Assembly (NCBI GenBank): GCA_950097145.1
Contig: CATNCF010000005.1
Location: 1 to 64,000, forward strand
Direction: 5' to 3'
From: an uncultured Lachnospiraceae bacterium
Lineage (GTDB): Bacteria > Bacillota > Clostridia > Lachnospirales > Lachnospiraceae
Length of the DNA stretch: 64,000 nt
Shown here: in pieces, positions 5,364 through 45,125 of the stretch
How positions within the stretch are numbered: position 1 is the first letter of the stretch
How the letters are laid out: each line of letters begins with the position of its first letter
Notes under the pieces: model-generated
Told to the model about the DNA's origin: nothing
What the model saw: the letters and a program-made list of their open reading frames with translations, nothing else
Databases searched by the model: none
Program-made: the position numbers and the translations under genes

Positions 5364-5579
5364 ATGAAACACAGAGAATTTGTTTATGTTGGCCGGACTA
5401 TTCCCGAATTGGATGAACAGGAACATGAAGCGTTTCTTATTAATATTCAGACAGCAATCCTTTTATCATTAGAAAAACGAAATCTTCTGACTGCATCCCA
5501 ACGAAAATGCTGTTTGCTTGAACTGGAAAAACGACGTAGATTAAGTCAGAAAGAGGAGCGTGGCAATGAATCGATATGA
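5364..5579 (+). CDS. small protein paired with serine recombinase
   Basis: 71 residues, ATG 5364 after AAGGAGGTGCC. Basic C-terminal helix (SQRKCCLLELEKRRRLSQKE). Its 3' end overlaps the recombinase start by 14 bases, so the two are translationally coupled. Short proteins of this kind are often found immediately upstream of large serine recombinases in Lachnospiraceae elements. Function is unknown; an accessory role in recombination is inferred from position only. Confidence 0.65.
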   Translation: MKHREFVYVGRTIPELDEQEHEAFLINIQTAILLSLEKRNLLTASQRKCCLLELEKRRRLSQKEERGNESI

Positions 5580-7239
5580 GCGCTTAAACCAAGAACGAAA
5601 AATCGTGGAGAAAAAAAAGCGTGTGGCAGCATACTGCCGTGTATCTACAGACAATGAAGACCAGGCAAATTCATTTGAAAGCCAGCAGCGTTATTTTAAG
5701 GAGTATATTGAACGTAATCCCAATTGGGAGCTTTACGAGATATTTGCAGATCAAGGTATTTCCGGCACAAATACAAAAAGGCGGAAAGAATTTAACCGCA
5801 TGGTTGCGTGTGCCAAGAATGGAGATTTTGATTTGATTCTTACAAAAGAGATTTCGCGTTTTGCCAGGAATACTCTGGACAGCATTTATTATACCCGAGA
5901 CCTGAAAAAGTATGGGGTAGGGGTTATCTTTCTAAATGATAATATTAATACCTTAGACAAAGATGCGGAGCTTCGTCTCGCCATTATGTCCTCGATTGCA
6001 CAGGAGGAAAGCCGTAAGACTTCCGAGCGTGTGAAGTGGGGGCAGAAACGCCAGATGGAGCAGGGAGTTGTGTTTGGGCGGAGTATGCTTGGCTACGATG
6101 TGAAAGATGGTAACATGTATATCAACGAGAAAGGTGCAGAAATTGTTCGGCTTATCTTTCATAAATTTGTCAATGAGAAGAAAGGGGCTCATGTCATTGC
6201 CCGTGAGCTTCAGGAAGCGGGGATACAACCCATGAGAAGTAAGGCATGGCAGAATACCGTAATTCTCCGTATCATCCGTAATGAGAAGTATTGTGGGGAT
6301 TTGGTGCAGAAGAAAACTTATACACCCGATTTCCTTTCCCACGAAAAAAAATACAATCGGGGACAGGAGGAATTTATTATTATCAAGGATCATCACGAAC
6401 CAATTATCTCCCGTGAAATGTTTGAGGAAGCAAACCATATGTTAGACCAGCGTTCTTTGTCTCAAAAGGGAAAAGCAAAGTACAGTAACCGTTATCCTTT
6501 TTCTGGTAAGATCAAATGTGGCTGCTGTGGTTCCAGTTATGTTGCACGGTATAAAATTCGAAAAAATGGAAGTCGTTATAAGGCTTGGCGGTGTAATGAA
6601 GCCGCCAAGCATGGAAAACCTCATATTGATAAAGCTGGAAACAAGGTGGGCTGCACAGGAATGAGTCTACGGAATGAAGACGCAATACATATTATGTATC
6701 TTGTCACAGGGAGCTTAAAATATAATAAGAAGAAAATCACTGGTGATTTACTTGCAATGATCAAGTCTGTAATTACCTCTGATCTGTCGTATGGTATGAA
6801 GGGTGTTTCCATAGATACTATAAGTACAGACAGTGAGAAATTGAAATCACAGATTAAGGCTATCGAGGAAAAACGCACAAAGCTCATTGATCTTTATACC
6901 TCTGGTGACATTACCAGAGAGGAATTTACAGCAGCAAGAGCAAAATGTGAGAATGAGATTACAAAACTGCAGTCTGTGATAGAAAGTATGCCTAGATATC
7001 CAGGGAAATGTTCTAGTGGAATGTTTGCTCAGATGGAGAAACAAAGGGAAATATCTACAAAGCAAAAAGAGCTTGTGGATGAAATTACAGAAGTGATGCA
7101 AGAGCTTGTAAACGGCGTGGAATATGAAGATGATTTTTATAAAGAAATCTTAAATAAAATGGTGGTAAATGACAAAGAACATATTGATGTGTATTTGCAC
7201 TTTCTGCCATTCAAATGGAGCTATACCATTGCAAAATGA
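5566..7239 (+). CDS. large serine recombinase
   Basis: 557 residues from ATG 5566 (GAGGAG eight bases upstream; a GTG two codons earlier is less likely). Domain order is: resolvase catalytic domain with YCRVSTD holding the nucleophilic Ser27 and Arg25, then SFESQQ and the 'EISRFARN' motif; recombinase DNA-binding domain (about 165-290); zinc ribbon with CGCCG and a later RCNEA; and a coiled-coil region (about 430-490), which controls integration versus excision in this family. It looks complete and active and is probably the integrase of a mobile island, but no attachment sites could be defined. A decayed direct-repeat relative of its first third lies at 17434. Confidence 0.93.
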   Translation: MNRYERLNQERKIVEKKKRVAAYCRVSTDNEDQANSFESQQRYFKEYIERNPNWELYEIFADQGISGTNTKRRKEFNRMVACAKNGDFDLILTKEISRFARNTLDSIYYTRDLKKYGVGVIFLNDNINTLDKDAELRLAIMSSIAQEESRKTSERVKWGQKRQMEQGVVFGRSMLGYDVKDGNMYINEKGAEIVRLIFHKFVNEKKGAHVIARELQEAGIQPMRSKAWQNTVILRIIRNEKYCGDLVQKKTYTPDFLSHEKKYNRGQEEFIIIKDHHEPIISREMFEEANHMLDQRSLSQKGKAKYSNRYPFSGKIKCGCCGSSYVARYKIRKNGSRYKAWRCNEAAKHGKPHIDKAGNKVGCTGMSLRNEDAIHIMYLVTGSLKYNKKKITGDLLAMIKSVITSDLSYGMKGVSIDTISTDSEKLKSQIKAIEEKRTKLIDLYTSGDITREEFTAARAKCENEITKLQSVIESMPRYPGKCSSGMFAQMEKQREISTKQKELVDEITEVMQELVNGVEYEDDFYKEILNKMVVNDKEHIDVYLHFLPFKWSYTIAK

Positions 7240-9294: not shown

Positions 9295-9439
9295 TTGCAT
9301 GTACTTGCGGTAAAGAATTCGCAACAGAAGAAGGGCTGAGAAGTAGGAGGTTATTTTTTCTATATGACCGGAATAATGCCCCTAAATTTAGTTGCGATCT
9401 ATCGTTTTTTTTGTGGTTAAATTTATAATATTATATAAT

Positions 9440-9456
9440 TGTACCAAAATATAAAA
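9440..9456 (+). promoter_or_regulatory. motif shared with the precursor-peptide upstream region (candidate sigma site)
   Basis: TGTACCAAAATATAAAA here and TGTAACAAAATGTAAAG at 14470-14486 agree at 14 of 17 positions. Each lies upstream of a gene of the RiPP cluster, which encodes its own ECF sigma factor. The region is AT-rich, so chance similarity is possible. Confidence 0.3.
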
Positions 9457-9470
9457 AGCTGGAGGTTGAC

Positions 9471-9953
9471 ATGAAGTACAATGAAAAACAAATTTTTCGG
9501 AAATCAAGTATAGACCGTGTTTCTTCTCCCGAGCAGCTAAATGATTATATCCGCGTATCCAATCCGAGCGTATGGATGATGTTGGCGGCGGTGATTGTTT
9601 TGCTGGCGGGGGTATGCGTCTGGGGAATTTTTGGGCGTCTTGAAAGTAAGATCCTTTCTGCGGGGACGAGCGAAAACGGCATTTTTATCTGTTATGTTAC
9701 GGAGAAAGACGTCGCTAAGATTAAAGCGGGAATGCTGGTAAAGGTAAACGGCAATGATTTCGCTGTTTCTGAAATTGCCGAAATGCCGATCGCCGTAAAC
9801 GCGGATATGGATCCCTATTTGATACATCTCGGAGGTTTTTCCGAGGGTGCGTGGATGTATGAGATAATTGCAGATGTGGATATTCCAGACGGTACATACT
9901 ATGCTGAAATCGTTACAGAAAGCGTATCGCCGATGTCGTTTATACTGAATTGA
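9471..9953 (+). CDS. short HlyD-like membrane-fusion component of NHLP peptide exporter
   Basis: 160 residues, ATG 9471 after GGAGG. N-terminal 'IFRKSSIDRVSSPEQLNDYI' is the usual opening of NHLP-system secretion proteins (it resembles 'RKxxLERLSSPEQLD'). One transmembrane helix follows (about 36-55, VWMMLAAVIVLLAGVCVWGI), then a beta-rich external domain (VTEKDVAKIKAGMLVKV). It lacks the long coiled-coil hairpin of full HlyD proteins, so it is about half the usual length. As a Gram-positive without an outer membrane the cell would not need the hairpin. First gene of the cluster, 15 bases before the peptidase-ABC gene. Confidence 0.75.
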   Translation: MKYNEKQIFRKSSIDRVSSPEQLNDYIRVSNPSVWMMLAAVIVLLAGVCVWGIFGRLESKILSAGTSENGIFICYVTEKDVAKIKAGMLVKVNGNDFAVSEIAEMPIAVNADMDPYLIHLGGFSEGAWMYEIIADVDIPDGTYYAEIVTESVSPMSFILN

Positions 9954-9968
9954 GAGGAGAGTCTGAAG

Positions 9969-12149
9969 ATGGGTACGAAAAAGATAAAGCAGCCTGTCAG
10001 AAACGGTAAGGTGAAAGTTCCTGTGGTAATGCAGATGGAAGCGCTGGAGTGCGGCGCGGCTTCTCTCACCATGATCCTTGCATATTACGGGAAATGGATA
10101 CCCCTTGAGCAGGTGCGCGCTGACTGCGGCGTATCGCGTGACGGTTCCAACGCGAAAAACATCCTAAAAGCAGCACGCAGCTATGGGTTGGCAGCGAAGG
10201 GCTATCGCTATGAGCCGGAGGGTTTAAAAGAGAATGGAAAATTTCCCTGTATCATTCATTGGAATTTCAATCATTTTGTAGTGTTGGACGGCTTCAAGGG
10301 CAGTAAGGCGTACATTAACGACCCTGCAAAAGGGAGTTATTCCGTGCCGATGGAAATATTTGACAAGTCCTTTACGGGGATTTGCCTGATGTTCGAGCCT
10401 GCGGAGAGCTTCGAGCCAGGCGGAGCCCCCAAGAGCATACTGACATTCGCGAAAAAACGGCTGAAAGAGGCCAAAACAGCAATGGTGTTTGTGGCGCTGA
10501 CAACGCTGATTACTGCTCTGTTGGGGATTATCACCCCAGCATTCTCGCGGATTTTCATGGATAGGCTTCTTACCGGTGAAAACCCAGAATGGTTTTTGCC
10601 GTTTATTTTCGCGCTTGGAGGAATAAGCGTGATACAGCTTATTGTGGAATGGATGAAAGCTGTTTATTCGCTGAAAATAAACGGTCAGCTTTCGGCAGTC
10701 GGAAGTACCGCTTATATGTGGAAGGTTCTTCGTATGCCGATGGAATTTTTCTCCCAGCGCATGGCGGGGGATATTCAGCAGAGGCAGAGAATGAACGCTT
10801 CGGTTGCCCAGTCATTGGCAGAGACTTTCGCGCCGTTGGCGTTAAACACGGTTATGCTGGTGTTTTATTTTACTGTAATGCTCCGCTACAACCCGATTCT
10901 GACGCTGGTAGGGGTGGTTTCCATCGTAATCAATCTTGTGGTTTCAAAGATTATATCCAATAAGCGCATGAACATTACCCGGGTACAGATGCGCGACGCG
11001 GGAAAACTCGCTGGAGCTACTGTGACGGGGATTGAAATGGTGGAAACAATCAAGGCCAGCGGCGCAGAGAATGGATTTTTCGAGAAATGGGCGGGCTATC
11101 AGGCCAGCGTGAATACCCAGCAGGTGCGTTTTGAACGCCTAAATCAGTATCTTGGCATGATTCCTGAGTTTGTGTCGTCACTGGCGAATGTCGCCGTGCT
11201 GATACTCGGAGTTTTTTTTACAATAAATGGAAAGTTTACAGTAGGTATGATCATGGCGTTTCAGGGCTTTTTAGGTTCTTTTACCGAACCCGCGCAGACG
11301 TTGATTTCGGCGGGACAGACGCTCCAGGAAATGCGCGCGCAGATGGAGCGCGTGGAGGATGTGATGGAATACCCAACGGATGTGAATTGTGACAGAAATG
11401 AGCTTTCAAAGGATGCGGAGTACAGCAAATTATCGGGCAACGTGGAACTTAAAAACGTCACGTTCGGCTATTCGCGTCTTGCAGAGCCTCTGATCAGGGA
11501 CTTTAATTTGACCCTTAAAACCGGCAGCCGCGTGGCCTTTGTCGGCACATCAGGCTGCGGAAAGTCCACGTTGTCGAAGCTTATTTCGGGGCTTTACCAG
11601 CCCTGGGAAGGCGAAATCTTATTTGACGGAAAACCCATAGAAAAAATAGACAGAAGTGTTTTTACCGGATCGTTGGCGGTAGTCGATCAGGATATTATTT
11701 TGTTTGAGGATACAATTGCAAACAATATCAAAATGTGGGATGGTTCGATAGAGGATTTTGAGATAATCATGGCGGCCCGGGATGCGCAGCTTCATGAGGA
11801 TATTATGCTGCGTGACGGCGGCTACAGTTACAAAATCACCGAGGGAGGCAAGGACTTTTCGGGTGGCCAGCGGCAGCGAATGGAGATTGCCCGTGTGTTA
11901 GTCCAAGATCCGACCATCATCATTCTTGACGAGGCAACTTCTGCACTGGATGCAAAAACGGAATTTGAAGTTGTAAGATCCATAAAAGACCGCGGAATTA
12001 CTTGTATTGTTGTGGCCCATAGGTTATCAACCATACGCGACTGCGATGAAATCATCGTGCTTGATAACGGGGAAGTTGTAGAGCGCGGGACACATAATGA
12101 GCTGTACGAAAGAGGCGGCGTTTATACACAACTTGTAACAAACGAATAA
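9969..12149 (+). CDS. NHLP-type export ABC transporter with C39 peptidase (peptidase/permease/ATPase)
   Basis: 726 residues. An N-terminal C39 double-glycine peptidase has the catalytic Cys28 in 'MEALECGAASL', His102 in 'NHFVVLDG' and Asp118 in 'INDPAKG'. Then come the ABC membrane domain (about 165-450) and an ATPase with Walker A GTSGCGKS (about 524-531), signature FSGGQRQR (about 631) and Walker B IIILDEATS. This protein cuts the leader after a double glycine and exports the peptide. The likely client is the GGG-containing precursor at 14514. ATG 9969 follows GAGAGGAG. It matches the known NHLP bacteriocin export peptidase/permease/ATPase subunit. Confidence 0.93.
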   Translation: MGTKKIKQPVRNGKVKVPVVMQMEALECGAASLTMILAYYGKWIPLEQVRADCGVSRDGSNAKNILKAARSYGLAAKGYRYEPEGLKENGKFPCIIHWNFNHFVVLDGFKGSKAYINDPAKGSYSVPMEIFDKSFTGICLMFEPAESFEPGGAPKSILTFAKKRLKEAKTAMVFVALTTLITALLGIITPAFSRIFMDRLLTGENPEWFLPFIFALGGISVIQLIVEWMKAVYSLKINGQLSAVGSTAYMWKVLRMPMEFFSQRMAGDIQQRQRMNASVAQSLAETFAPLALNTVMLVFYFTVMLRYNPILTLVGVVSIVINLVVSKIISNKRMNITRVQMRDAGKLAGATVTGIEMVETIKASGAENGFFEKWAGYQASVNTQQVRFERLNQYLGMIPEFVSSLANVAVLILGVFFTINGKFTVGMIMAFQGFLGSFTEPAQTLISAGQTLQEMRAQMERVEDVMEYPTDVNCDRNELSKDAEYSKLSGNVELKNVTFGYSRLAEPLIRDFNLTLKTGSRVAFVGTSGCGKSTLSKLISGLYQPWEGEILFDGKPIEKIDRSVFTGSLAVVDQDIILFEDTIANNIKMWDGSIEDFEIIMAARDAQLHEDIMLRDGGYSYKITEGGKDFSGGQRQRMEIARVLVQDPTIIILDEATSALDAKTEFEVVRSIKDRGITCIVVAHRLSTIRDCDEIIVLDNGEVVERGTHNELYERGGVYTQLVTNE

Positions 12150-12168
12150 AGGAGGTGAAAATAGGAGA

Positions 12169-14370
12169 ATGGGATGGTTTGACGAACAAATAAAACAGCG
12201 GAAACAAAACGATCAGGATGTTTTTACAGATGCCTTTATCAACATTGCCGGCGCAGTAATGGGCAGTCATGTTTCAGCCGCGCTGAATGACCAGCGGCAG
12301 CAGACGAAAAACGCTTTTGACGAGATATTAAGATTTTATCATATAAATACGAAAGATATTCCCGACAATATCACGGACAGAAATGAACAGCTTGAATACT
12401 TGCTCCGCCCCCATGGAATCATGCGCCGTACGGTAACGCTCTCGAAAGGCTGGTACAAAGATGCAATCGGAGCAATGCTGGGAATCCGTAAAAGCGATGG
12501 AATGGTTGTTGCGCTTATCCCCGCGCGATTTTCAGGTTATCGTTATCGGGATATGGAAACAGGAAAACTTGTGAAAATAAACGGCAAAAACCAGGAGCTT
12601 TTCGAGGAAGAAGCGATAGTTTTTTACAAGCCGCTGCCACTGAAAGCACTTGGAATTTCGGATTTGATGCGGTATATTCTGGGAACGCTTTCCCCCGCTG
12701 ATTTTGTGATGACAGGCGCGTCAGCGCTGGCAGTAACATTGATTGGAATGTTATCGCCGAAGCTTAATAACCTGCTGTTTTCACGTGTGATCGAGGACGG
12801 CAGCACACAGATTTTGCTTGCGATTACGGTGTTTATGATTTGCGTTACGCTCAGTTCCCTGCTGATAAACGGCGTAAAGTCGCTGATTATAGCGCGGATA
12901 AACACCAAAATGAGTATTTCGGTTCAGGCTGCAATCATGTCCCGCTTAATGTCGCTGCCCGCAGAGTTTTTTAAGAATTACAGTTCAGGAGAATTAGCTG
13001 CGCGGGCGCAGTGCAGCAATTCGCTGTGCGAGATGCTGGTGTCTGTAGTGCTGACGACAGGGCTTACGTCTGTATTTTCACTTGTATACATATCGCAGAT
13101 CTTTGTGTACGCGCCAGCGCTGGTGATACCATCGCTTATCATTACGCTTGCTACAGTGGCGTTTACAGTAGTATCAGCATTTGTGCAGATGAAAGTCAGC
13201 AAAAAAAAGATGGAGCTGTCCTCAAAAGAGAGCGGAATGTCCTATGCACTGATATCGGGCGTGCAGAAGATTAAGCTTTCGGGAGCGGAAATGCGTGCGT
13301 TCGCACGGTGGGGAAACCTTTATGCCGAAGAAGCGCGGCTTGCCTACAACCCTCCGATGTTCCTGAAAATAAACAGCGTTATTTCAAGCGCTATCTCGCT
13401 TGCAGGAACGCTTATGATGTATTGGATTGCGGTATCGTCAGGAGTGTCCGTAGCGGACTACTATGCATTCAATACCGCTTATGGAATGGTTTCCGGGGCA
13501 TTTATCTCGCTTGCGGGAATCGCGTTGACTGTGGCGCAGATTAAGCCGATTATGGATATGGTAGAACCGATTTTGAAGGCAGTTCCCGAAATTTCCGAGG
13601 GAAAGCAGATGATTACGCGGCTTTCGGGCAGCATCGAACTGGATAACGTTTCCTTCCGTTACAACGAAAATATGCCCCTTGTGATTGACGATCTGTCGCT
13701 GAAAATCCGTCCGGGGCAGTATGTGGCGATCGTGGGCGCAACCGGGTGCGGGAAGTCTACGCTTTTGCGGCTTATGCTGGGCTTTGAATCACCGCAGAAG
13801 GGCGCCGTTTACGTAGATGGCAAGGATATTGCGGCGGTGGACTTAAAGTCTTTCAGGCGCAATATCGGCGTGGTAATGCAAAATGGCAAGCTGTTTACGG
13901 GAGATATTTTCTCGAATATTATCATATCTGCACCGTGGCTTACTATGGATGAGGCTTGGCATGCCGCCGAATTGTCAGGCATTGCAGAGGATATTCGCCG
14001 TATGCCGATGGGGATGCACACAATGATTTCCGAGGGCAGCGGCGGAATTTCGGGTGGGCAGCGGCAGCGGCTGATGATTGCCCGTGCCATTGCACCAAAA
14101 CCAAGCGTGCTGATGTTTGACGAGGCGACTTCAGCCCTTGATAATCTCACGCAGAAAACGGTTTCGGAATCGCTGGACAGTCTGAAATGCACGAGGATTG
14201 TTATCGCGCACAGGCTTTCTACCATCAAACAGTGCGACAGGATATTGGTGCTTGATAAGGGAAAGATTATCGAAGATGGGACATATGACCAGTTGATACA
14301 AAGGGGAGGTTTTTTCGCAGAACTAGTGGACAGACAAAGGGTTGACGATACCGCAGAATTGAGGGCCTGA
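12169..14370 (+). CDS. NHLP-type export ABC transporter, second permease/ATPase subunit
   Basis: 733 residues, ATG 12169, ribosome site GGAGGTG. About 170 residues without peptidase motifs precede the ABC membrane domain. The ATPase has Walker A GATGCGKST (about 523), SGGISGGQRQRLMIARA and a Walker B 'VLMFDEATSALD'. It matches the partner permease/ATPase of NHLP systems, which pairs with the peptidase subunit to form a heterodimeric exporter. It lies 19 bases downstream of that gene, in one operon. Confidence 0.9.
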   Translation: MGWFDEQIKQRKQNDQDVFTDAFINIAGAVMGSHVSAALNDQRQQTKNAFDEILRFYHINTKDIPDNITDRNEQLEYLLRPHGIMRRTVTLSKGWYKDAIGAMLGIRKSDGMVVALIPARFSGYRYRDMETGKLVKINGKNQELFEEEAIVFYKPLPLKALGISDLMRYILGTLSPADFVMTGASALAVTLIGMLSPKLNNLLFSRVIEDGSTQILLAITVFMICVTLSSLLINGVKSLIIARINTKMSISVQAAIMSRLMSLPAEFFKNYSSGELAARAQCSNSLCEMLVSVVLTTGLTSVFSLVYISQIFVYAPALVIPSLIITLATVAFTVVSAFVQMKVSKKKMELSSKESGMSYALISGVQKIKLSGAEMRAFARWGNLYAEEARLAYNPPMFLKINSVISSAISLAGTLMMYWIAVSSGVSVADYYAFNTAYGMVSGAFISLAGIALTVAQIKPIMDMVEPILKAVPEISEGKQMITRLSGSIELDNVSFRYNENMPLVIDDLSLKIRPGQYVAIVGATGCGKSTLLRLMLGFESPQKGAVYVDGKDIAAVDLKSFRRNIGVVMQNGKLFTGDIFSNIIISAPWLTMDEAWHAAELSGIAEDIRRMPMGMHTMISEGSGGISGGQRQRLMIARAIAPKPSVLMFDEATSALDNLTQKTVSESLDSLKCTRIVIAHRLSTIKQCDRILVLDKGKIIEDGTYDQLIQRGGFFAELVDRQRVDDTAELRA

Positions 14371-14513
14371 AAATTTTTTGGAAATTTATTGGCTCTCGGC
14401 GGTTTTGATTCGTATAAAAGAACAAAGGCGCGAATCACGTCTATGATTATCAGTTTTTATACTGTAATCTGTAACAAAATGTAAAGGTGACTTAATATTA
14501 GGAGGAAAGCACT
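14371..14513 (+). promoter_or_regulatory. gap before the precursor gene with candidate regulatory signals
   Basis: Contains an inverted repeat GATTCG...CGAATC at 14407-14438 and the motif TGTAACAAAATGTAAAG (14470-14486), which is also present before the first cluster gene. TAATAT follows TGTAAC after 17 bases, so it may be a separate promoter giving high precursor expression. AGGAGG lies 7 bases before the precursor ATG. Confidence 0.35.
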
Positions 14514-14840
14514 ATGGAAAAAAAAGACCTTATTGCAAAGGCAACACAGACAAAATTTGACGAAGAACTTATTGTAAAGGCAAAACAGGCAAACTCTGTC
14601 GAAGAGCTTATGGCTCTCGCAAAGAAAAATGGTTATCCGATGGACGAGAAGAAGGCAGAAGTTTATTTTGAAAAGCTTCACAAGATGGGCGAGCTATCGG
14701 ATGATGAGCTTGGCAATGTAGCAGGAGGCGGATGCCGTCCCAATCTTTGTCCCTTCTGCGGAGGTGACCTTGACGCCGTCAAATCACACTCTACTTTCAA
14801 AACTTTGTGTTGCCCATACTGCGGTAAGTTTGCATGTTGA
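14514..14840 (+). CDS. Nif11-type leader RiPP precursor with seven-cysteine, double-CPxCG core
   Basis: 108 residues. The leader (1-73) shows the Nif11/NHLP pattern: 'SVEELMALAKKNGYPMDEKK', an aromatic YFEKL and the end 'GELSDDELGNVAGGG', a double-glycine cleavage site that fits the C39 peptidase. The predicted core is residues 74-108, with Cys at 74, 79, 82, 99, 100, 103 and 108, including CPFCG (79-83) and CPYCG (100-104). Two such knuckles are the layout of a zinc ribbon. The alternatives are thioether cross-links made by the radical SAM enzyme encoded next, as in sacti- and ranthipeptides, or both. Two leader helices (residues 5-20 and 20-35) look like a duplication. The leader and transport assignment is strong; the nature of the product is inferred. 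Confidence 0.88.
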   Translation: MEKKDLIAKATQTKFDEELIVKAKQANSVEELMALAKKNGYPMDEKKAEVYFEKLHKMGELSDDELGNVAGGGCRPNLCPFCGGDLDAVKSHSTFKTLCCPYCGKFAC

Positions 14841-14881
14841 ACAATCATGGTGTGAAGGGAAGAGGCCCTTTTATGGCTTTC

Positions 14882-14894
14882 CCATACTGCGGTC
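14882..14894 (+). repeat. 13-bp repeat of the precursor's last knuckle, possible relic of a second core
   Basis: CCATACTGCGGT with the preceding C occurs inside the precursor gene (14814-14826 region, Pro-Tyr-Cys-Gly) and again here 66 bases downstream, where one frame reads FPYCGPWGR and stops. It may be the tail of a duplicated core. Confidence 0.35.
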
Positions 14895-14926
14895 CGTGGG
14901 GGCGGTAGGACAAATAATATCCGTAT

Positions 14927-14946
14927 TTTGCGGCAGTTTCCGCAAA
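14927..14946 (+). promoter_or_regulatory. hairpin between precursor and maturase genes
   Basis: TTTGCGG (14927-14933) and CCGCAAA (14940-14946) form a perfect 7-bp stem with a 6-base loop, just upstream of the maturase ribosome site. It could lower maturase expression relative to the precursor or stabilise the upstream mRNA. No T-run follows, so it is not a standard terminator. Confidence 0.45.
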
Positions 14947-14968
14947 TAATGATAAGGAGTGAATTGAG

Positions 14969-16366
14969 ATGAATCGGTACATATTAAATCCAGACATCGC
15001 CCTGCGCTCATGGCGGCTGGTGCCGTATGCGTATTACAGAAAGGGTGTCCGTTACGCGAAAGGATTGAAAAAGGAAGAGTTTGAATTCCTTTTGAAGTGC
15101 GACGGTAAAACGGAGCTTGAGGGGGAACTGCCACTTGCGGAAAAATTTTTGGATATGGGATTTATTGCTCATGCAAAGGATGAGGGTATCCTGTCTGAAT
15201 GGCAAAAACACCTCGACTGTGACAACCGCTATTTTCCTGCAATAAGCTGGATGATAACAGGAAAATGCAATTATAGCTGCCTGCACTGCTTCAACGCTGC
15301 CGATAACGCTCCCATAATGAGTGAGTGGACGATTGAGGAAGCAAAGAGGCTGATTGAGCAGGCGCAAAAGTGTGGAATCAATGCTTTTACGATTACAGGC
15401 GGCGAGCCTATGCTCCATAAGAATTTTTTTGAGATTGTGGAGAGTATTTACGCACACGGAATGTACCTTGAGGATCTGAACACGAACGGTTCTTTCCTTG
15501 ACGAGACAGCATTGGAGCAATTTAGGAAAATCGGCTGTAATCCGCTGATTAAAATATCCTTTGATGGAATCGGACATCACGACTGGCTCAGAAACCGCAA
15601 GGGGGCGGAGGCGGACGCGCTTCGGGCAATTCGCCTGTGCGTGGAGAAGGGCTTCCGTGTAAAAGTGCAGACGAACGTCCATCGGCTTAATATCGAATCC
15701 ATGTTACCTACAGCGGAAATGTTAGATGAAATGGGCGTGAATGAAATGCGGGTGATCCGTACTTCAGAATCACCGCGTTGGAAGGAAAATGCAGATGGTT
15801 CCTGCTTAGAGGTTGAGGAATATTACGAAAGAATGTTGGAATTTGCCGACAGATATATCAAAAAGAAACACAATATGACAATAGATATCTGGCAGTTTCT
15901 CACGGTGTTTCCACAAACAGAATCTTACCGTCTGCGCCCCGTTGAATACGTTGCCGGAGAGTACCGGGACAGTATGCCCGTGTGCCGTGGGAACAGGGGG
16001 ATGGTTGCGGTCGCAGCAGACGGAAATGTCTACCCTTGTATGCAGATGTCAGGGTATTTTAGCGCGAAGAACAATTTCCTGGGCAACGTTAAAAAAGAGG
16101 GATTGCAGCCAATTCTGCAAGAAGGGAGATATCTGAGAGAGGTCTGCGCTACACTGGGGCAGTTGTCAGATAACAATGAAACCTGCGAGGTGTGTCCTTA
16201 TTTTAAACACTGCGGGGGTGGCTGTCGCGCGCTGGCACTGGCGATTACGGGTGATAAATTTGGCATTGATCCCGCAAAATGTCTATTTTTCCAAAAAGGT
16301 TGGCACAGGAAAATCAAGGAAACGCTCCGGGGTTGGAAAAATATAGCGCCTATGGAGGGCGAATGA
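14969..16366 (+). CDS. radical SAM/SPASM peptide maturase
   Basis: 465 residues, ATG 14969 after AAGGAG. Residues 1-85 resemble a PqqD-like peptide-recognition domain. The radical SAM cluster is C100-x3-C104-x2-C107 (CNYSCLHC), followed by 'TITGGEPMLH'. The C-terminal SPASM region has Cys in 'PVCRGNRG', 'VYPCMQMSG' and the run CEVCPYFKHCGGGC, enough for two auxiliary [4Fe-4S] clusters. Enzymes of this type install thioether, carbon-carbon or related links in RiPP precursors. The cysteine-rich precursor immediately upstream is the obvious substrate. Which bond is made cannot be read from sequence. Confidence 0.92.
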   Translation: MNRYILNPDIALRSWRLVPYAYYRKGVRYAKGLKKEEFEFLLKCDGKTELEGELPLAEKFLDMGFIAHAKDEGILSEWQKHLDCDNRYFPAISWMITGKCNYSCLHCFNAADNAPIMSEWTIEEAKRLIEQAQKCGINAFTITGGEPMLHKNFFEIVESIYAHGMYLEDLNTNGSFLDETALEQFRKIGCNPLIKISFDGIGHHDWLRNRKGAEADALRAIRLCVEKGFRVKVQTNVHRLNIESMLPTAEMLDEMGVNEMRVIRTSESPRWKENADGSCLEVEEYYERMLEFADRYIKKKHNMTIDIWQFLTVFPQTESYRLRPVEYVAGEYRDSMPVCRGNRGMVAVAADGNVYPCMQMSGYFSAKNNFLGNVKKEGLQPILQEGRYLREVCATLGQLSDNNETCEVCPYFKHCGGGCRALALAITGDKFGIDPAKCLFFQKGWHRKIKETLRGWKNIAPMEGE

Positions 16367-16551
16367 TGGAGGAGAAATTACGCCGGCTGTTTGACTTCCA
16401 GAAATTTTCGAAAAATCTACGTCTTGCCGAAATGATGGATGAAACTGAGAAACGTTACGGCGAGACGCTTTCAGATGAAGAACTGGAACAGGTGAATGCT
16501 GCGGGCGAATTTGTCCCGTTTGAAAGCCGGAGGGATAATTCCGATGATTGA
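16366..16551 (+). CDS. small leader-like protein of the RiPP cluster
   Basis: 61 residues. ATG 16366 is preferred over ATG 16363 because GGAGG then has 7-base spacing; it overlaps the maturase stop by one base. The sequence LFDFQKFSKNLRLAEMMDET ends in 'LSDEELEQVNAAGEF', close to the leader end 'LSDDELGNVAGGG' of the precursor but followed by only about 14 residues without cysteine. It may be a second precursor, a leader-only partner that regulates the maturase, or a sigma-factor partner. It overlaps the sigma gene by 8 bases, so it is translationally coupled to it. Confidence 0.6.
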   Translation: MEEKLRRLFDFQKFSKNLRLAEMMDETEKRYGETLSDEELEQVNAAGEFVPFESRRDNSDD

Positions 16552-17047
16552 ACTGCACAAAAACACCGAATTTGAGCAGATTTATGCCAAGTTTAAGGAT
16601 AAGGTGGCGCGATATATATATGGGAAAATACCGAACGAACACGACACGGAGGATTTAATCTCGGACGTGTTTGTCAAAGTATTTAAGGGGTTTTCGGGAT
16701 TTGATGAGACAAAGGCTTCCCTGTCAACATGGATATATAGGATAACGCAGAATACCGTTATTGACTATTATCGGATGGCGAAGTCTGTTTACGGGCTTCC
16801 AGAGGAACTTTGCTTTGAAGGAAACATTGATGAGGAAATGCTTAACGAGGAAACGCTCAAAAGTCTTGCAGACGCTCTCGAGCAGCTCTCCCAGCGAGAT
16901 CGCGATATTATTATCCTGCACTATTATAGCGGGAAAACATTGAAAAGTATCGCAGAAATAATGGATATTTCATACAGCTATGTAAAGCTGCTTCACACAA
17001 AGGCTCTGAAAGTTCTGCGCGAAATAATATATGATGAAACATCTTGA
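16544..17047 (+). CDS. ECF-type RNA polymerase sigma factor
   Basis: 167 residues from ATG 16544 (GGAGGGA upstream; overlap ATGATTGA with the previous gene). Region 2: 'IPNEHDTEDLISDVFVKVFK' and 'STWIYRITQNTVIDYYR'. Region 4: 'LSQRDRDIIILHYYSGKTLK' then 'SIAEIMDISYSYVKLLHTKA'. No anti-sigma gene is adjacent. Last gene of the RiPP operon, so it probably switches the cluster on, perhaps through the motif shared by 9440 and 14470. Confidence 0.88.
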   Translation: MIELHKNTEFEQIYAKFKDKVARYIYGKIPNEHDTEDLISDVFVKVFKGFSGFDETKASLSTWIYRITQNTVIDYYRMAKSVYGLPEELCFEGNIDEEMLNEETLKSLADALEQLSQRDRDIIILHYYSGKTLKSIAEIMDISYSYVKLLHTKALKVLREIIYDETS

Positions 17048-17067
17048 CAAACATACTAGACGTATGT
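17044..17067 (+). promoter_or_regulatory. -35 element and operator of a decayed TetR gene
   Basis: TTGACA at 17044-17049 overlaps the stop region of the sigma gene. ACATAC (17051-17056) and GTATGT (17062-17067) form a palindrome with a 5-base spacer, as expected for a self-regulated TetR gene. The regulator it served is a relic. Confidence 0.5.
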
Positions 17068-17084
17068 GAAAGAGGAGCTCAAAC

Positions 17085-17216
17085 ATAGCAAGGAATAAGC
17101 ATCTAGAAGAAACCGTTAATTTATTATTGGATGTTTCTTTTCGCGTATTTATAGAAAAGGGATATGAGCATACTTCCACTCAGGATATTATTGATAATTT
17201 AGGCAGTCTTGGCTGA
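17085..17216 (+). pseudogene. TetR-family regulator, N-terminal fragment
   Basis: Reads ARNKHLEETVNLLLDVSFRV then 'FIEKGYEHTSTQDIIDNL', the first helices of a TetR helix-turn-helix domain. The first codon is ATA instead of ATG, with GAGGAG at correct spacing. Sequence stops after 43 codons, before the recognition helix is complete. Both lesions mean it is dead. Confidence 0.75.
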
Positions 17217-17274
17217 TATAATACCTCTTAAGTAGACAATGGAAATAACCAAAATCTTCTTGGGAGGTATTTTT

Positions 17275-17352
17275 ATGGCTAAATCACCATATACACCAGA
17301 ATTTCGTGATATGAAATTATATGGTACAATCATTCTCTTATACATTGAATAG
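17275..17352 (+). pseudogene. start of an IS3-like transposase OrfA
   Basis: ATG 17275 after GGGAGG encodes MAKSPYTPEFRDMKLYG, the opening of an IS3-family OrfA ('YTPEFRxxxV'), then goes out of frame and stops. The bases before it (17217-17250, with TAAGTAGACAATGGA) resemble the left end of such an element. Only about 130 bases are left. Confidence 0.5.
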
Positions 17353-17433: not shown

Positions 17434-17950
17434 ATGTCAATAGATAAATACGAAACACTAAATCAAGAAAGGAAGATACAGCACACAAAGAGAAAGGTTG
17501 CCGCATACTGCCATGTATTTACGGGCAACGAAGATCAGGCAAATTCGTTTGAAAGCCAGCAGCGTTATTTCAGACAGTATATAGAGCGTAATCCCGATTG
17601 GGAGCTTTATGAAGTGTTCGTAGATGAAGGAATCTCTGGTATGAATACGAAAAAACGGAAAGAATTTAACCGCATGATTGCGTGTGCAAAGAACGGTGAT
17701 TTTGATTGTAACAAAAGAAATCTCCCGTTTTGCGAGAAATACCCTTGATAGTATATTCTATACCCGTGACCTCAAAAAGCACGGCGTGGGTGTTATCTTT
17801 CTAAATGATAACATCAACACTTTAGACGGCGATGCAGAGCTTCGCCTTGCCATTATGTCCTCGATTGCAAAGGAGGAAAGCCGTAAGACTTCCGAGCGTG
17901 TGAAATGGGGGCAGAAACGCCAGATGGAGCAGGGAGTTGTGTTTGGGCGG
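17434..17950 (+). pseudogene. large serine recombinase, catalytic-domain fragment with mutated active site
   Basis: Strongly similar at DNA and protein level to 5566-6081. The active-site motif YCRVSTD has become YCHVFTG, so the nucleophilic serine and an arginine are lost. Near 17706 five bases are missing relative to the intact gene, shifting the frame; the next frame restores KEISRFARNTLDSI and 'FLNDNINTL'. Homology ends abruptly at VVFGR (17950). Ribosome site and ATG 17434 are intact. A direct-repeat relic, clearly inactive. Confidence 0.92.
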
Positions 17951-17978
17951 TGTCTTGAAGCTGCAAGACATCCGCTCA

Positions 17979-18007
17979 CGGGAAAGCTTCCACTGGAAGC
18001 TTTCCCG
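17979..18007. repeat. perfect 13-bp palindrome at a rearrangement joint
   Basis: CGGGAAAGCTTCC (17979-17991), loop ACT, GGAAGCTTTCCCG (17995-18007). A second stem, CCCTGA 18034-18039 with TCAGGG 18051-18056, follows. The stretch 17951-18066 belongs neither to the recombinase nor to cotJC. It may be the end of a mobile or repetitive element. Confidence 0.7.
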
Positions 18008-18041
18008 CACACTGGGCGAAAAAAAGCGAGGGTCCCTGAGA

Positions 18042-18076
18042 TGGAACATTTCAGGGGCTTCTCTACCTATATCAGT
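18042..18076 (-). repeat. 35-bp repeat, copy 2 (inverted partner at 8859-8893)
   Basis: Reverse complement of copy 1 with three mismatches. It begins inside the remaining cotJC codons (Thr-Asp-Ile-Gly) and continues into the foreign joint sequence. Confidence 0.75.
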
Positions 18077-18250
18077 CAATAATCCTGCAACTTCCCGGTA
18101 AGGGATGGTGTAACGCTGGGACAGATACCGCATAGAAGCAGACAGTTCACCGTCAGGGCCACCAAACTGGCTGATGATTACCTGTGCTATCTGAGGGTTG
18201 GTCTGGGTAATATTTACCGGATATTGTAATCGTTTTTCATAATTCCACAT
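18065..18250 (-). pseudogene. cotJC: spore coat protein CotJC (manganese-catalase family), N-terminal 62 codons only
   Basis: Reads MWNYEKRLQYPVNITQTNP ... ISQFGGPDGELSASMRYLSQ ... 'GLLTDIG', the conserved opening of CotJC, then departs from the family (which continues with a metal-binding Glu-Glu-x-x-His region) into repeat sequence. The ferritin-like core and metal ligands are absent; the normal length is about 190 residues. It starts directly after the cotJB stop. Confidence 0.88.
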
Positions 18251-31704: not shown

Positions 31705-32427
31705 ATGAATGTTTCAATGACAAGTATAGGGACAGACACTTATCGGAAAGGTTCCGTTTTTGCCGGAAATCTTCCAATGCTGCAAAATAATGGGCTGAAA
31801 AGCACCCAGGAGAAAGCAGAGCGGCAGCAGAAGGCACAGAACGAAGTTTCGTTCTGGGAGAAACAGAAGGAAAACCTGAAGGAAAAGGAGTGCGATACGG
31901 TAGAGGAAATTGCTGAGAAACTCAAAGCTCTGCACAGCTATGAGGAAGAAATTGCGTCAGTAAAGCAATCCTTTAATAATGAGCAGATGTGGCATATAAT
32001 GGACGAAGCGCAGGAGCGCGGAGAGAAGATTGCAGAAGCTGCCGAGAAGATGGAACCAAAGACGCCGGAAGAGAGGCGGGAAGAAGCTGCCGAAGAAGCT
32101 CTGGGTACAGAAGAAGACAAGAGCGCAATGGAGGAACTGTTGGACGACGTTTCCGATATGGCAGAAGAAACCGCAGAGATGGCGGAGGATTTGCAGAATC
32201 TCAAAGAAACTGCAGAAGAAATGGAAAACAACGCGCAGGAGGCAGAAAATCTTCAGGAAGGCGAAGGAGCTTTATCAGAACTTACTCAGCAGATGCAGAA
32301 TATCCAGGAGCAGAAACAGCAGGAACAGGAAGAAGAAAAGCTTGCTGCCAGGCAGGCGCAGAAGCTTGGAGCATATCAGCCTGAGCAGAAGAAGTATCTC
32401 TATCAGGGGATGAACATTTTAGTATGA
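31705..32427 (+). CDS. coiled-coil hypothetical protein
   Basis: 240 residues, ATG 31705 after AAAGGAGG. No signal peptide. From about residue 30 on it is almost entirely Glu/Lys/Gln/Ala helix (for example 'MAEETAEMAEDLQNLKETAE'), predicted coiled coil, ending with a Tyr-rich tail (YQPEQKKYLYQGMNILV). No known domain. It stands alone between the hydrogenase operon and a bidirectional terminator. Function is unknown. Confidence 0.7.
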   Translation: MNVSMTSIGTDTYRKGSVFAGNLPMLQNNGLKSTQEKAERQQKAQNEVSFWEKQKENLKEKECDTVEEIAEKLKALHSYEEEIASVKQSFNNEQMWHIMDEAQERGEKIAEAAEKMEPKTPEERREEAAEEALGTEEDKSAMEELLDDVSDMAEETAEMAEDLQNLKETAEEMENNAQEAENLQEGEGALSELTQQMQNIQEQKQQEQEEEKLAARQAQKLGAYQPEQKKYLYQGMNILV

Positions 32428-32430
32428 TTT

Positions 32431-32505
32431 AGCATGAGGAGGGACCCAGCATTTAACATGAGGAGGGACCCAGCGAAGCTGGGAGGAGCCCTTGTGCTTC
32501 TTACC
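32431..32505 (+). repeat. hairpin repeat related to the 68-bp array at 44922
   Basis: One full unit (CATGAGGAGGGACCCA, stem CCCAGC-GAA-GCTGGG, GGAGGAGCCCTTGTGCTTCTTA) preceded by a 20-bp partial copy. The stem has one more pair than in the array, with both arms changed together. Confidence 0.75.
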
Positions 32506-32514
32506 GGAGCCATG

Positions 32515-44918: not shown

Positions 44919-44921
44919 TTA

Positions 44922-45125
44922 GCATGAGGAGGGACCCACGAAGTGGGAGGAGTCCTTGTGCTTCTTATCGTGCCCAAAGAAGTAAAAAAGCATGAGGAGG
45001 GACCCACGAAGTGGGAGGAGTCCTTGTGCTTCTTATCGTGCCCAAAGAAGTAAAAAAGCATGAGGAGGGACCCACGAAGTGGGAGGAGCCCTTGTGCTTC
45101 TTATCGTGCCCAAAGAAGTAAAAAA
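44922..45125 (+). repeat. three tandem 68-bp hairpin repeats in the leader of the two-component operon
   Basis: Units at 44922, 44990 and 45058, nearly identical (one T/C change in unit 3). Each has GCATGAGGAGGGA, stem CCCAC-GAA-GTGGG, GGAGGAGTCCTTG, then a CTTCTT...AAGAAG stem and an A-run. A related unit with a compensated stem lies at 32453. Confidence 0.93.

Follow-up and report, generated by a model that had tools for sequence, protein, structure and literature searches.

The window analysed here, i.e. 64,000 nucleotides (positions 1 to 64,000) of contig CATNCF010000005.1 from an uncultured Lachnospiraceae bacterium (assembly GCA_950097145.1), holds a seven-gene cassette for what appears to be a ribosomally synthesized and post-translationally modified peptide (RiPP). 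Seven open reading frames (ORFs) lie on the + strand at 9471-17047 with intergenic gaps of 15, 19, 143 and 128 bp and two overlaps. They encode, in this order, a short protein similar to HlyD, an exporter with a C39 domain, another ABC exporter, a precursor with a Gly-Gly (GG) leader, a radical S-adenosylmethionine (rSAM)/SPASM enzyme, a small leader-like protein and an extracytoplasmic function (ECF) sigma factor (Table 1). The same-strand island described in an earlier account made from the letters of the DNA, hereafter the sequence-only reading, was thus found with all seven ORFs.

Table 1. Features of the cassette, in positions of the window
Feature	Position	Strand	Basis
Whole cassette	9433..17058	+	Edges are the points where similarity to other genomes ends; blastn spans: L041 9435-17057, L042 9433-17058 plus further matches to 17624, L043 9408-16385
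Short HlyD-like secretion accessory protein, 160 aa	9471..9953	+	TIGR03794 positions 1-48, below cut-off; homologues adjoin ABC1 in other loci
ABC exporter with C39 leader peptidase (Cys28/His102/Asp118), ABC1	9969..12149	+	TIGR03796, Pfam C39
Second ABC exporter subunit without peptidase, ABC2	12169..14370	+	TIGR03797 above cut-off
Precursor peptide, 108 aa	14514..14840	+	
Nif11-like leader, residues 1-72, ends in GG	14514..14729	+	TIGR03798 below cut-off
Post-GG cysteine Cys74, putative maturase target	14733..14735	+	Invariant in 35-core alignment
Zinc-ribbon-like knuckle pair, Cys79/82 and Cys100/103	14748..14822	+	35-core alignment, Pfam matches, shuffle control
Radical SAM/SPASM maturase, 465 aa	14969..16366	+	Motifs; Pfam Radical_SAM and SPASM
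Small leader-like protein, ends AAG plus acidic tail	16363..16551 (start 16363 or 16366)	+	Homologues adjoin ECF sigma genes
ECF sigma factor, regions 2 and 4	16544..17047	+	Pfam PF04542, PF04545, TIGR02937 above cut-off

The individual motifs read earlier were confirmed: the C39 triad is intact, both ATPases carry Walker A, signature and Walker B motifs, and sigma regions 2 and 4 match their Pfam families. The maturase has CNYSCLHC (CxxxCxxC) at 100 and the SPASM motifs CX9-15GX4C at 339 and CX2CX5CX3C at 406; its residues 1-92 had no Pfam match at E 0.05, and an N-terminal recognition domain was not found. ABC1 reached 957.3 bits against TIGR03796 (cut-off 853.3) and ABC2 739.9 bits against TIGR03797 (cut-off 709.4), scores that place both in nitrile hydratase leader peptide (NHLP)/Nif11-type export. 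The claim of an NHLP exporter therefore stands for the two ABC subunits, but the HlyD-like protein, with 39.7 bits against TIGR03794 (cut-off 156.2), fell far short of that family.

Cores with a zinc-ribbon-like pattern

The 36-residue core following the GG site, GCRPNLCPFCGGDLDAVKSHSTFKTLCCPYCGKFAC, has the zinc-ribbon-like pattern CPFCG...CPYCG with one extra Cys right after GG. For comparison 35 cores were aligned, eight from the genus, L026 and L027 together with 27 of 46 from G041, G242 and G387. Across these cores, which were selected for the four ribbon Cys and from which a G314 ribbon precursor without early Cys (a Cys within four residues of GG) was left out, five Cys are invariant, one just after GG plus two CxxC pairs. 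Searched singly at E 0.01, 16 cores matched Zn_Ribbon_TF (TFIIB type), 13 Zn_ribbon_8 and 11 the TFIIS ribbon, while 0/35 sequences in one set of Cys-fixed shuffles matched any Pfam family. Among 47 ribbon cores of G242, G387 and G041, Pro follows the first ribbon Cys in 34, Gly-Ser follows knuckle 1 in 31, Gly follows knuckle 2 in 33 and Trp lies within five residues of knuckle 2 in 34, with a spacing of 14-28. The peptide family thus has two CxxC knuckles in ribbon-like surroundings; the core of the window has both pairs and looks like a zinc ribbon, with weak profile matches of its own (see below), and may bind zinc.

The leader resembles Nif11 at scores below cut-off (TIGR03798 26.2 bits, cut-off 32.3; Pfam Nif11 21.3, cut-off 23.8), and at E 0.01 TIGR03798 matched 23 of 24 aligned precursors. 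Of the Nif11 leader with GG named in the sequence-only reading, the GG site and the similarity were recovered, but not formal family membership. TIGR04165 (methano_modCys), likewise a Cys-rich peptide family and linked to an rSAM enzyme in methanogens, was matched by only 2/24 precursors (best E 7e-5), the one of the window not among them.

Between close relatives the core changed much more than the enzyme. Its ratio of nonsynonymous to synonymous rates (dN/dS) was 1.73 against L042 and 1.66 against L043, compared with 0.13 and 0.16 for the maturase; for the exporter it was 0.11-0.13 (against L041 and L043). Nonsynonymous to synonymous differences were 20.5:3.5 (L042) and 25.5:4.5 (L043) in the core versus 28:50 and 23.5:36.5 in the maturase (Fisher p 5e-5 and 3e-5), and all five Cys were kept in both comparisons.

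A contrast between leader and core was seen in G242 and G387, two genomes of one other genus; with four candidates per genome scored, each gave one maturase match at E 1e-40, of 44% identity. They hold 33 and 20 leader matches, respectively, mostly unlinked to the maturase. Of 33 parsed ORFs in G242, 30 have the strict ribbon pattern and 31 the early Cys, the two misses being contig-end pieces; in G387 the figures are 16 and 19 of 19. Leader identity was 0.78 and 0.81 versus a core identity of 0.23 and 0.24 (30 and 16 ribbon precursors). Prochlorosin precursors are dispersed in the genome in a similar way. No such library was found in the genome of the window, which has a single precursor match at E 1e-8, and G041 also has one precursor of this kind; the 'one peptide' per system of the sequence-only reading hence fits the window genome but not G242 and G387. 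The maturase of these two genomes adjoins NHLP exporter genes, an ECF sigma gene and a leader-like protein, and further genes near that of G242 are STAS and RsbW-like by family search. In seven of 22 fetched library stretches, inspected by eye, no other maturase or immunity gene was seen. Two similar large lipoprotein-like genes adjoin ribbon precursors in G242 (L125 5725-7443 and L123 1055-2722).

Two repeats were noted in the precursor gene. A 39-bp tandem duplication (2.3 copies) lies within the leader at 14524-14611, and the shorter L025 leader seems to be without it. At 14813-14893 a 13-bp piece of the last-knuckle coding sequence appears a second time 68 bp further along, immediately after the stop codon; L042, L043 and L025 are without the stretch between the copies.

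The cysteine after the GG site and the maturase

Membership of the maturase in an already characterised RiPP class would have spoken against novelty. It scored below cut-off for all of the 25 best of 77 NCBIfam families, far below for StsB (103.8 bits, cut-off 625) and PapB (69.9, cut-off 340), and a known maturase class was rejected as its identity on that basis. Spliceotides, named in the sequence-only reading among the systems with Nif11 leaders and radical SAM enzymes, are products from whose core a Tyr-derived unit is excised by the rSAM enzyme.

In an rSAM tree of 32 rows (rows under 300 aa or above E 1e-30 were dropped), one supported clade of 15 rows contains 10 of the 11 ribbon-labelled rows. 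The ribbon label changes 5 times on the tree versus 9.4 in shuffles, and 1/500 shuffles was as low; four of the rows are near-copies from the genus. L057 was labelled 'no', although a different contig of its genome, G699, carries a ribbon precursor. No ribbon precursor was found for L058, L059 and L031. At L056 (365-10514) a LanM and non-ribbon precursors stand beside the same kind of exporter.

The parse covered every fetched locus, misses the ribbon precursor of G699 and yielded 62 distinct ribbon-pattern precursors, 55 of them with the early Cys. This residue was present in 55/56 precursors from genomes with a maturase of the clade versus 0/6 from others. The seven without it are two on contig 8 of G083, where an exporter (ABC1 69% identity) lies with them and no maturase match was found in 19.9 kb, four that come from G151 and G174, and a single short-leader precursor of G314. 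Conversely, the early Cys is kept without a ribbon behind the same leaders in one core of G242, three of G387 and two of G114. Because the early Cys follows the clade maturase and persists in these same-leader cores, the distribution points to the early Cys as the target of the enzyme and to the ribbon as the exported payload. A small-protein-type precursor of G391 was considered as a ribbon without early Cys and rejected, since its pairs are CxC and Cx4C.

Recurrence of the cassette and the sigma module

The precursor is carried by 3 of 28 other genus members searched. All three also have the cassette, 93-95% identical in DNA and bounded near 9433 and 17058, which is not chance. L043 is without the small protein and the sigma gene, and L042 shares slightly more on the right, beside serine-recombinase sequence. 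G546 belongs to a different genus of the family; one of its contigs ends in a maturase fragment (90%), after which come the small protein and a sigma gene that is broken, while a precursor lies on another contig. The cassette is patchy and was probably transferred. The expected co-occurrence of seven genes therefore applies to precursor, maturase and NHLP exporter, which are linked and recurrent, but not throughout to the last two genes. Loss of linkage in relatives, named beforehand as a sign against the island, was seen in part in G314: exporter and maturase lie on different contigs, but both halves are in the genome. In L042 (4922-9322), from a genome of few contigs, each of the two exporter genes is broken into two frames, by decay or assembly indels.

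Further away, maturase relatives (own genome counted) occurred in 14/392 order genomes (E 1e-40), 13/397 family genomes (1e-50) and 4/398 phylum genomes (1e-45); where a related maturase is present (36-58% identity), the precursors follow the same plan in several genomes but not in others. The precursor profile was found in 10/295 order genomes (1e-8), with ribbon cores read in G000, G113, G114, G151, G174 and G242 and none at the matched places of the other four. G174 (80% complete) had no maturase match at 1e-15. In the order-level relatives L071, L076, L081 and L082 the core is longer, with a GC(A/S)ATVEPGS-x-C motif before the ribbon-like pair. Carriage on mobile replicons was not supported: the maturase was not found in plasmids, the precursor of the window not in phages, a precursor of G242 in neither, and neither precursor alignment nor maturase in viral_contigs, absences that prove little.

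The sigma factor and the small protein are a separable, regulatory-looking module. The small protein, which has no Pfam or NCBIfam match, was found in 6/200 family genomes, own included. Its neighbour is an ECF sigma gene in G000, G450, G222, G314 and G546 (one intact, one broken) but not in G391, and the exporter is present in only some of these genomes. The pair goes with a different maturase and core in L064, with an exporter but no maturase in L153 (the maturase of that genome is on another contig), and in L151 and L152 without an NHLP exporter within the 15.5-15.8 kb read. At L064 (7536-17144) the same exporter kind, small protein and sigma factor go with a different rSAM enzyme (28%) and a Gly/Cys-rich core, so that maturase and precursor look swappable. 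At L154 (7332-7691) a leader of the small-protein type, with AAGG, continues into a core whose Cys form CxC and Cx4C pairs, which suggests that the small proteins may be precursors themselves.

A candidate promoter, the 16-bp motif TGTAMCAAAATRTAAA, lies upstream of the HlyD-like and precursor genes, with no other exact copy in the 82.8%-complete genome. It was derived from those two sites, and two hits at 2 mismatches occurred in 2/100 window shuffles; upstream of HlyD it is not conserved in L041 or L043.

Around the cassette, a serine recombinase gene lies upstream at 5560-7239; downstream, at 17434-18082, is a partial copy of it, 84% identical and with a broken frame. Short remnants at 17059-17345, by eye a TetR-type and a transposase start, include a part (17059-17188) absent from L042. 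Elsewhere in the window a 68-bp unit is repeated three times (99%) at 44921-45125, with a related partial copy at 32427-32506.

Known systems and interpretation

Exporter, leader type and rSAM/SPASM enzyme are all of known kinds; the comparisons below refer to the portions of the cited papers that were available. NHLP/Nif11 leader peptides with TIGR03794/03796/03797 export were described by Haft et al. 2010 (PMC2887384) and have in common with the present cassette the leader type, the GG site, a C39 exporter with second ABC and HlyD-like protein, and genomes that hold many precursors with hypervariable cores. The modification described there is by thiazole/oxazole-modified microcin (TOMM) enzymes and LanM; 'radical SAM' does not occur in the available main text, and 'zinc' only with respect to a cyclodehydratase and within the title of a reference. 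From anaerobes, precursors of the Nif11/NHLP type have been reported together with C39-type transporters and radical SAM proteins; their cores measure 14-59 aa, and those of three precursors from Eggerthella lenta 50-59 aa (PMC4289311). The available text has no 'zinc', 'SPASM' or 'sigma'. Radical SAM genes in clusters of this type have thus been published before. No description of ribbon payloads with this exporter, leader type and rSAM/SPASM enzyme was found in the open-access papers searched.

In prochlorosins, one LanM acts with about 30 Nif11 precursors (PMC6363468, PMC10783134). Like G242 and G387 they combine one maturase with many precursors, a conserved Nif11-type leader and diverse cores, but here the enzyme is an rSAM/SPASM protein, the constant part of the core is the ribbon plus the post-GG Cys, and the window has a single precursor. 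In LahT/LahA of Lachnospiraceae C6A11 (PMC6363468), nine precursors of Nif11 type, with cores that differ widely, go with a C39 exporter; the available main text is without 'radical', 'zinc' or 'sigma factor'. A four-Cys zinc ribbon in a RiPP precursor is known from type II pamtides (PMC10787088), which differ in a DnaJ-type ribbon with central Asp and a two-gene cluster with an O-methyltransferase; none is among the seven cassette genes.

We propose that the precursor consists of a Nif11-like leader, one Cys right after GG and a fast-changing payload, which here and in most parsed relatives would be a four-Cys zinc ribbon. The leader would recruit the rSAM/SPASM enzyme, and the post-GG Cys would be modified by it or linked to a neighbour. 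The C39 exporter would cut after GG and, together with the second ABC and the short HlyD-like protein, release a small protein that binds zinc and carries a modification at its N-terminus; its most likely use would be against gut bacteria or between them. Judged from its position, the sigma factor probably drives the cassette. To the reading as a whole, i.e. that the enzyme modifies the post-GG Cys and that the exported payload is a zinc ribbon, we assign a probability of roughly 0.48.

Several observations weigh against it. The window core has both CxxC pairs but is among the weaker of the aligned cores in ribbon matching, with weak matches to DUF7575 (E 0.005) and, below cut-off, to Zn_ribbon_3 (E 0.008). 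Two AlphaFold models were of low confidence (predicted local distance difference test 64, predicted template modelling score 0.43 and 0.36), and a PDB fold search gave no match at E 0.001, its top row being a Nif11 leader nuclear magnetic resonance structure (E 1.7). The six-precursor contrast group is small and from other lineages. Its two members from G083 contig 8 have no Pfam ribbon match, and G083 has a 33% maturase relative elsewhere; its other four come from one other genus with different and longer cores, where G151 has a 30% maturase relative. The G314 precursor, moreover, lacks the early Cys. In the maturase clade 5/15 rows are labelled without ribbon, of which only that of G699 later showed a ribbon precursor; they include L056, the nearest maturase outside the genus (59%), which adjoins the LanM. 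L041 gives no substitution data because its core is identical to that of the window. No immunity gene was recognised. In the core dN was not significantly above dS (p 0.07-0.21); positive selection on it was accordingly dropped as a claim, despite the significant contrast between core and maturase. PDB profile-search matches to C2H2 finger proteins, at the top of the list, matched across repeats and were not counted.

A conventional product of the sacti- or ranthipeptide type, with the paired Cys as thioether donors for the enzyme and the ribbon look convergent, appears unlikely. StsB and PapB are thioether-forming maturases, and the SPASM Cys motifs and the sub-cut-off similarity to these two models would suit such a product, as would the Cys-bearing non-ribbon cores that accompany other rSAM relatives (L034-L037, L060-L064); the ribbon-like surroundings of the Cys (CPxCGS, aromatic-x-CxxCG-x-x-W), the Pfam matches that are absent from Cys-fixed shuffles and the single-Cys cores behind the same leader argue against it. 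The sequence-only reading had looked for support in cross-links in the core; these would be hypothetical, and of the five conserved Cys four resemble a zinc site. We consider it slightly less likely still that a ribbon peptide is exported while the enzyme acts on a varying loop residue or is dispensable, the early Cys being a habit of leader or cleavage site. This would accord with the early Cys in 18/31 parsed non-ribbon leader peptides, 11 of these outside G114, G242 and G387 (which counts also against the preferred reading), and with the ribbon-pattern precursors beside an exporter without enzyme on G083 contig 8. It is at odds with the retention of the early Cys in 31/33 ORFs of G242 and 19/19 of G387 while the rest of the core varies almost completely, and with its absence from the 6/6 ribbon-pattern precursors outside clade genomes. 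Metal carriers or sensors, for capture and release of zinc or iron, would explain why the constant part of the core is a metal-binding pattern, but a role of this kind rather than one as antagonists or signals seems improbable: no metal transporter is among the seven genes, and hypervariable loops in 33 and 20 leader matches of two genomes would be odd for a carrier.

The cassette is real and recurrent, and its parts are known ones, but its payload is unexpected. We regard it as a variant of leader-GG rSAM peptides that has a fair chance of forming a separate class. More specifically, and somewhat more tentatively than the modification of the post-GG Cys and the ribbon payload themselves, the peptides may represent a new RiPP class of secreted zinc-ribbon mini-proteins, in which a dedicated rSAM/SPASM enzyme modifies the single post-GG Cys; some order genomes would hold dispersed, fast-evolving libraries of dozens, and the cassette of the window would be the same system in a compact and transferable form with one peptide. 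As a rule, leader-GG rSAM peptides are taken as short cross-linked chains, whereas the exported part here resembles a small folded metal-binding domain, its core diversified like a recognition surface around five fixed Cys. If true, this would be a family of gut-bacterial peptides with a directly testable leader, enzyme and exporter, and with a specific residue to test for an as yet unassigned rSAM enzyme.

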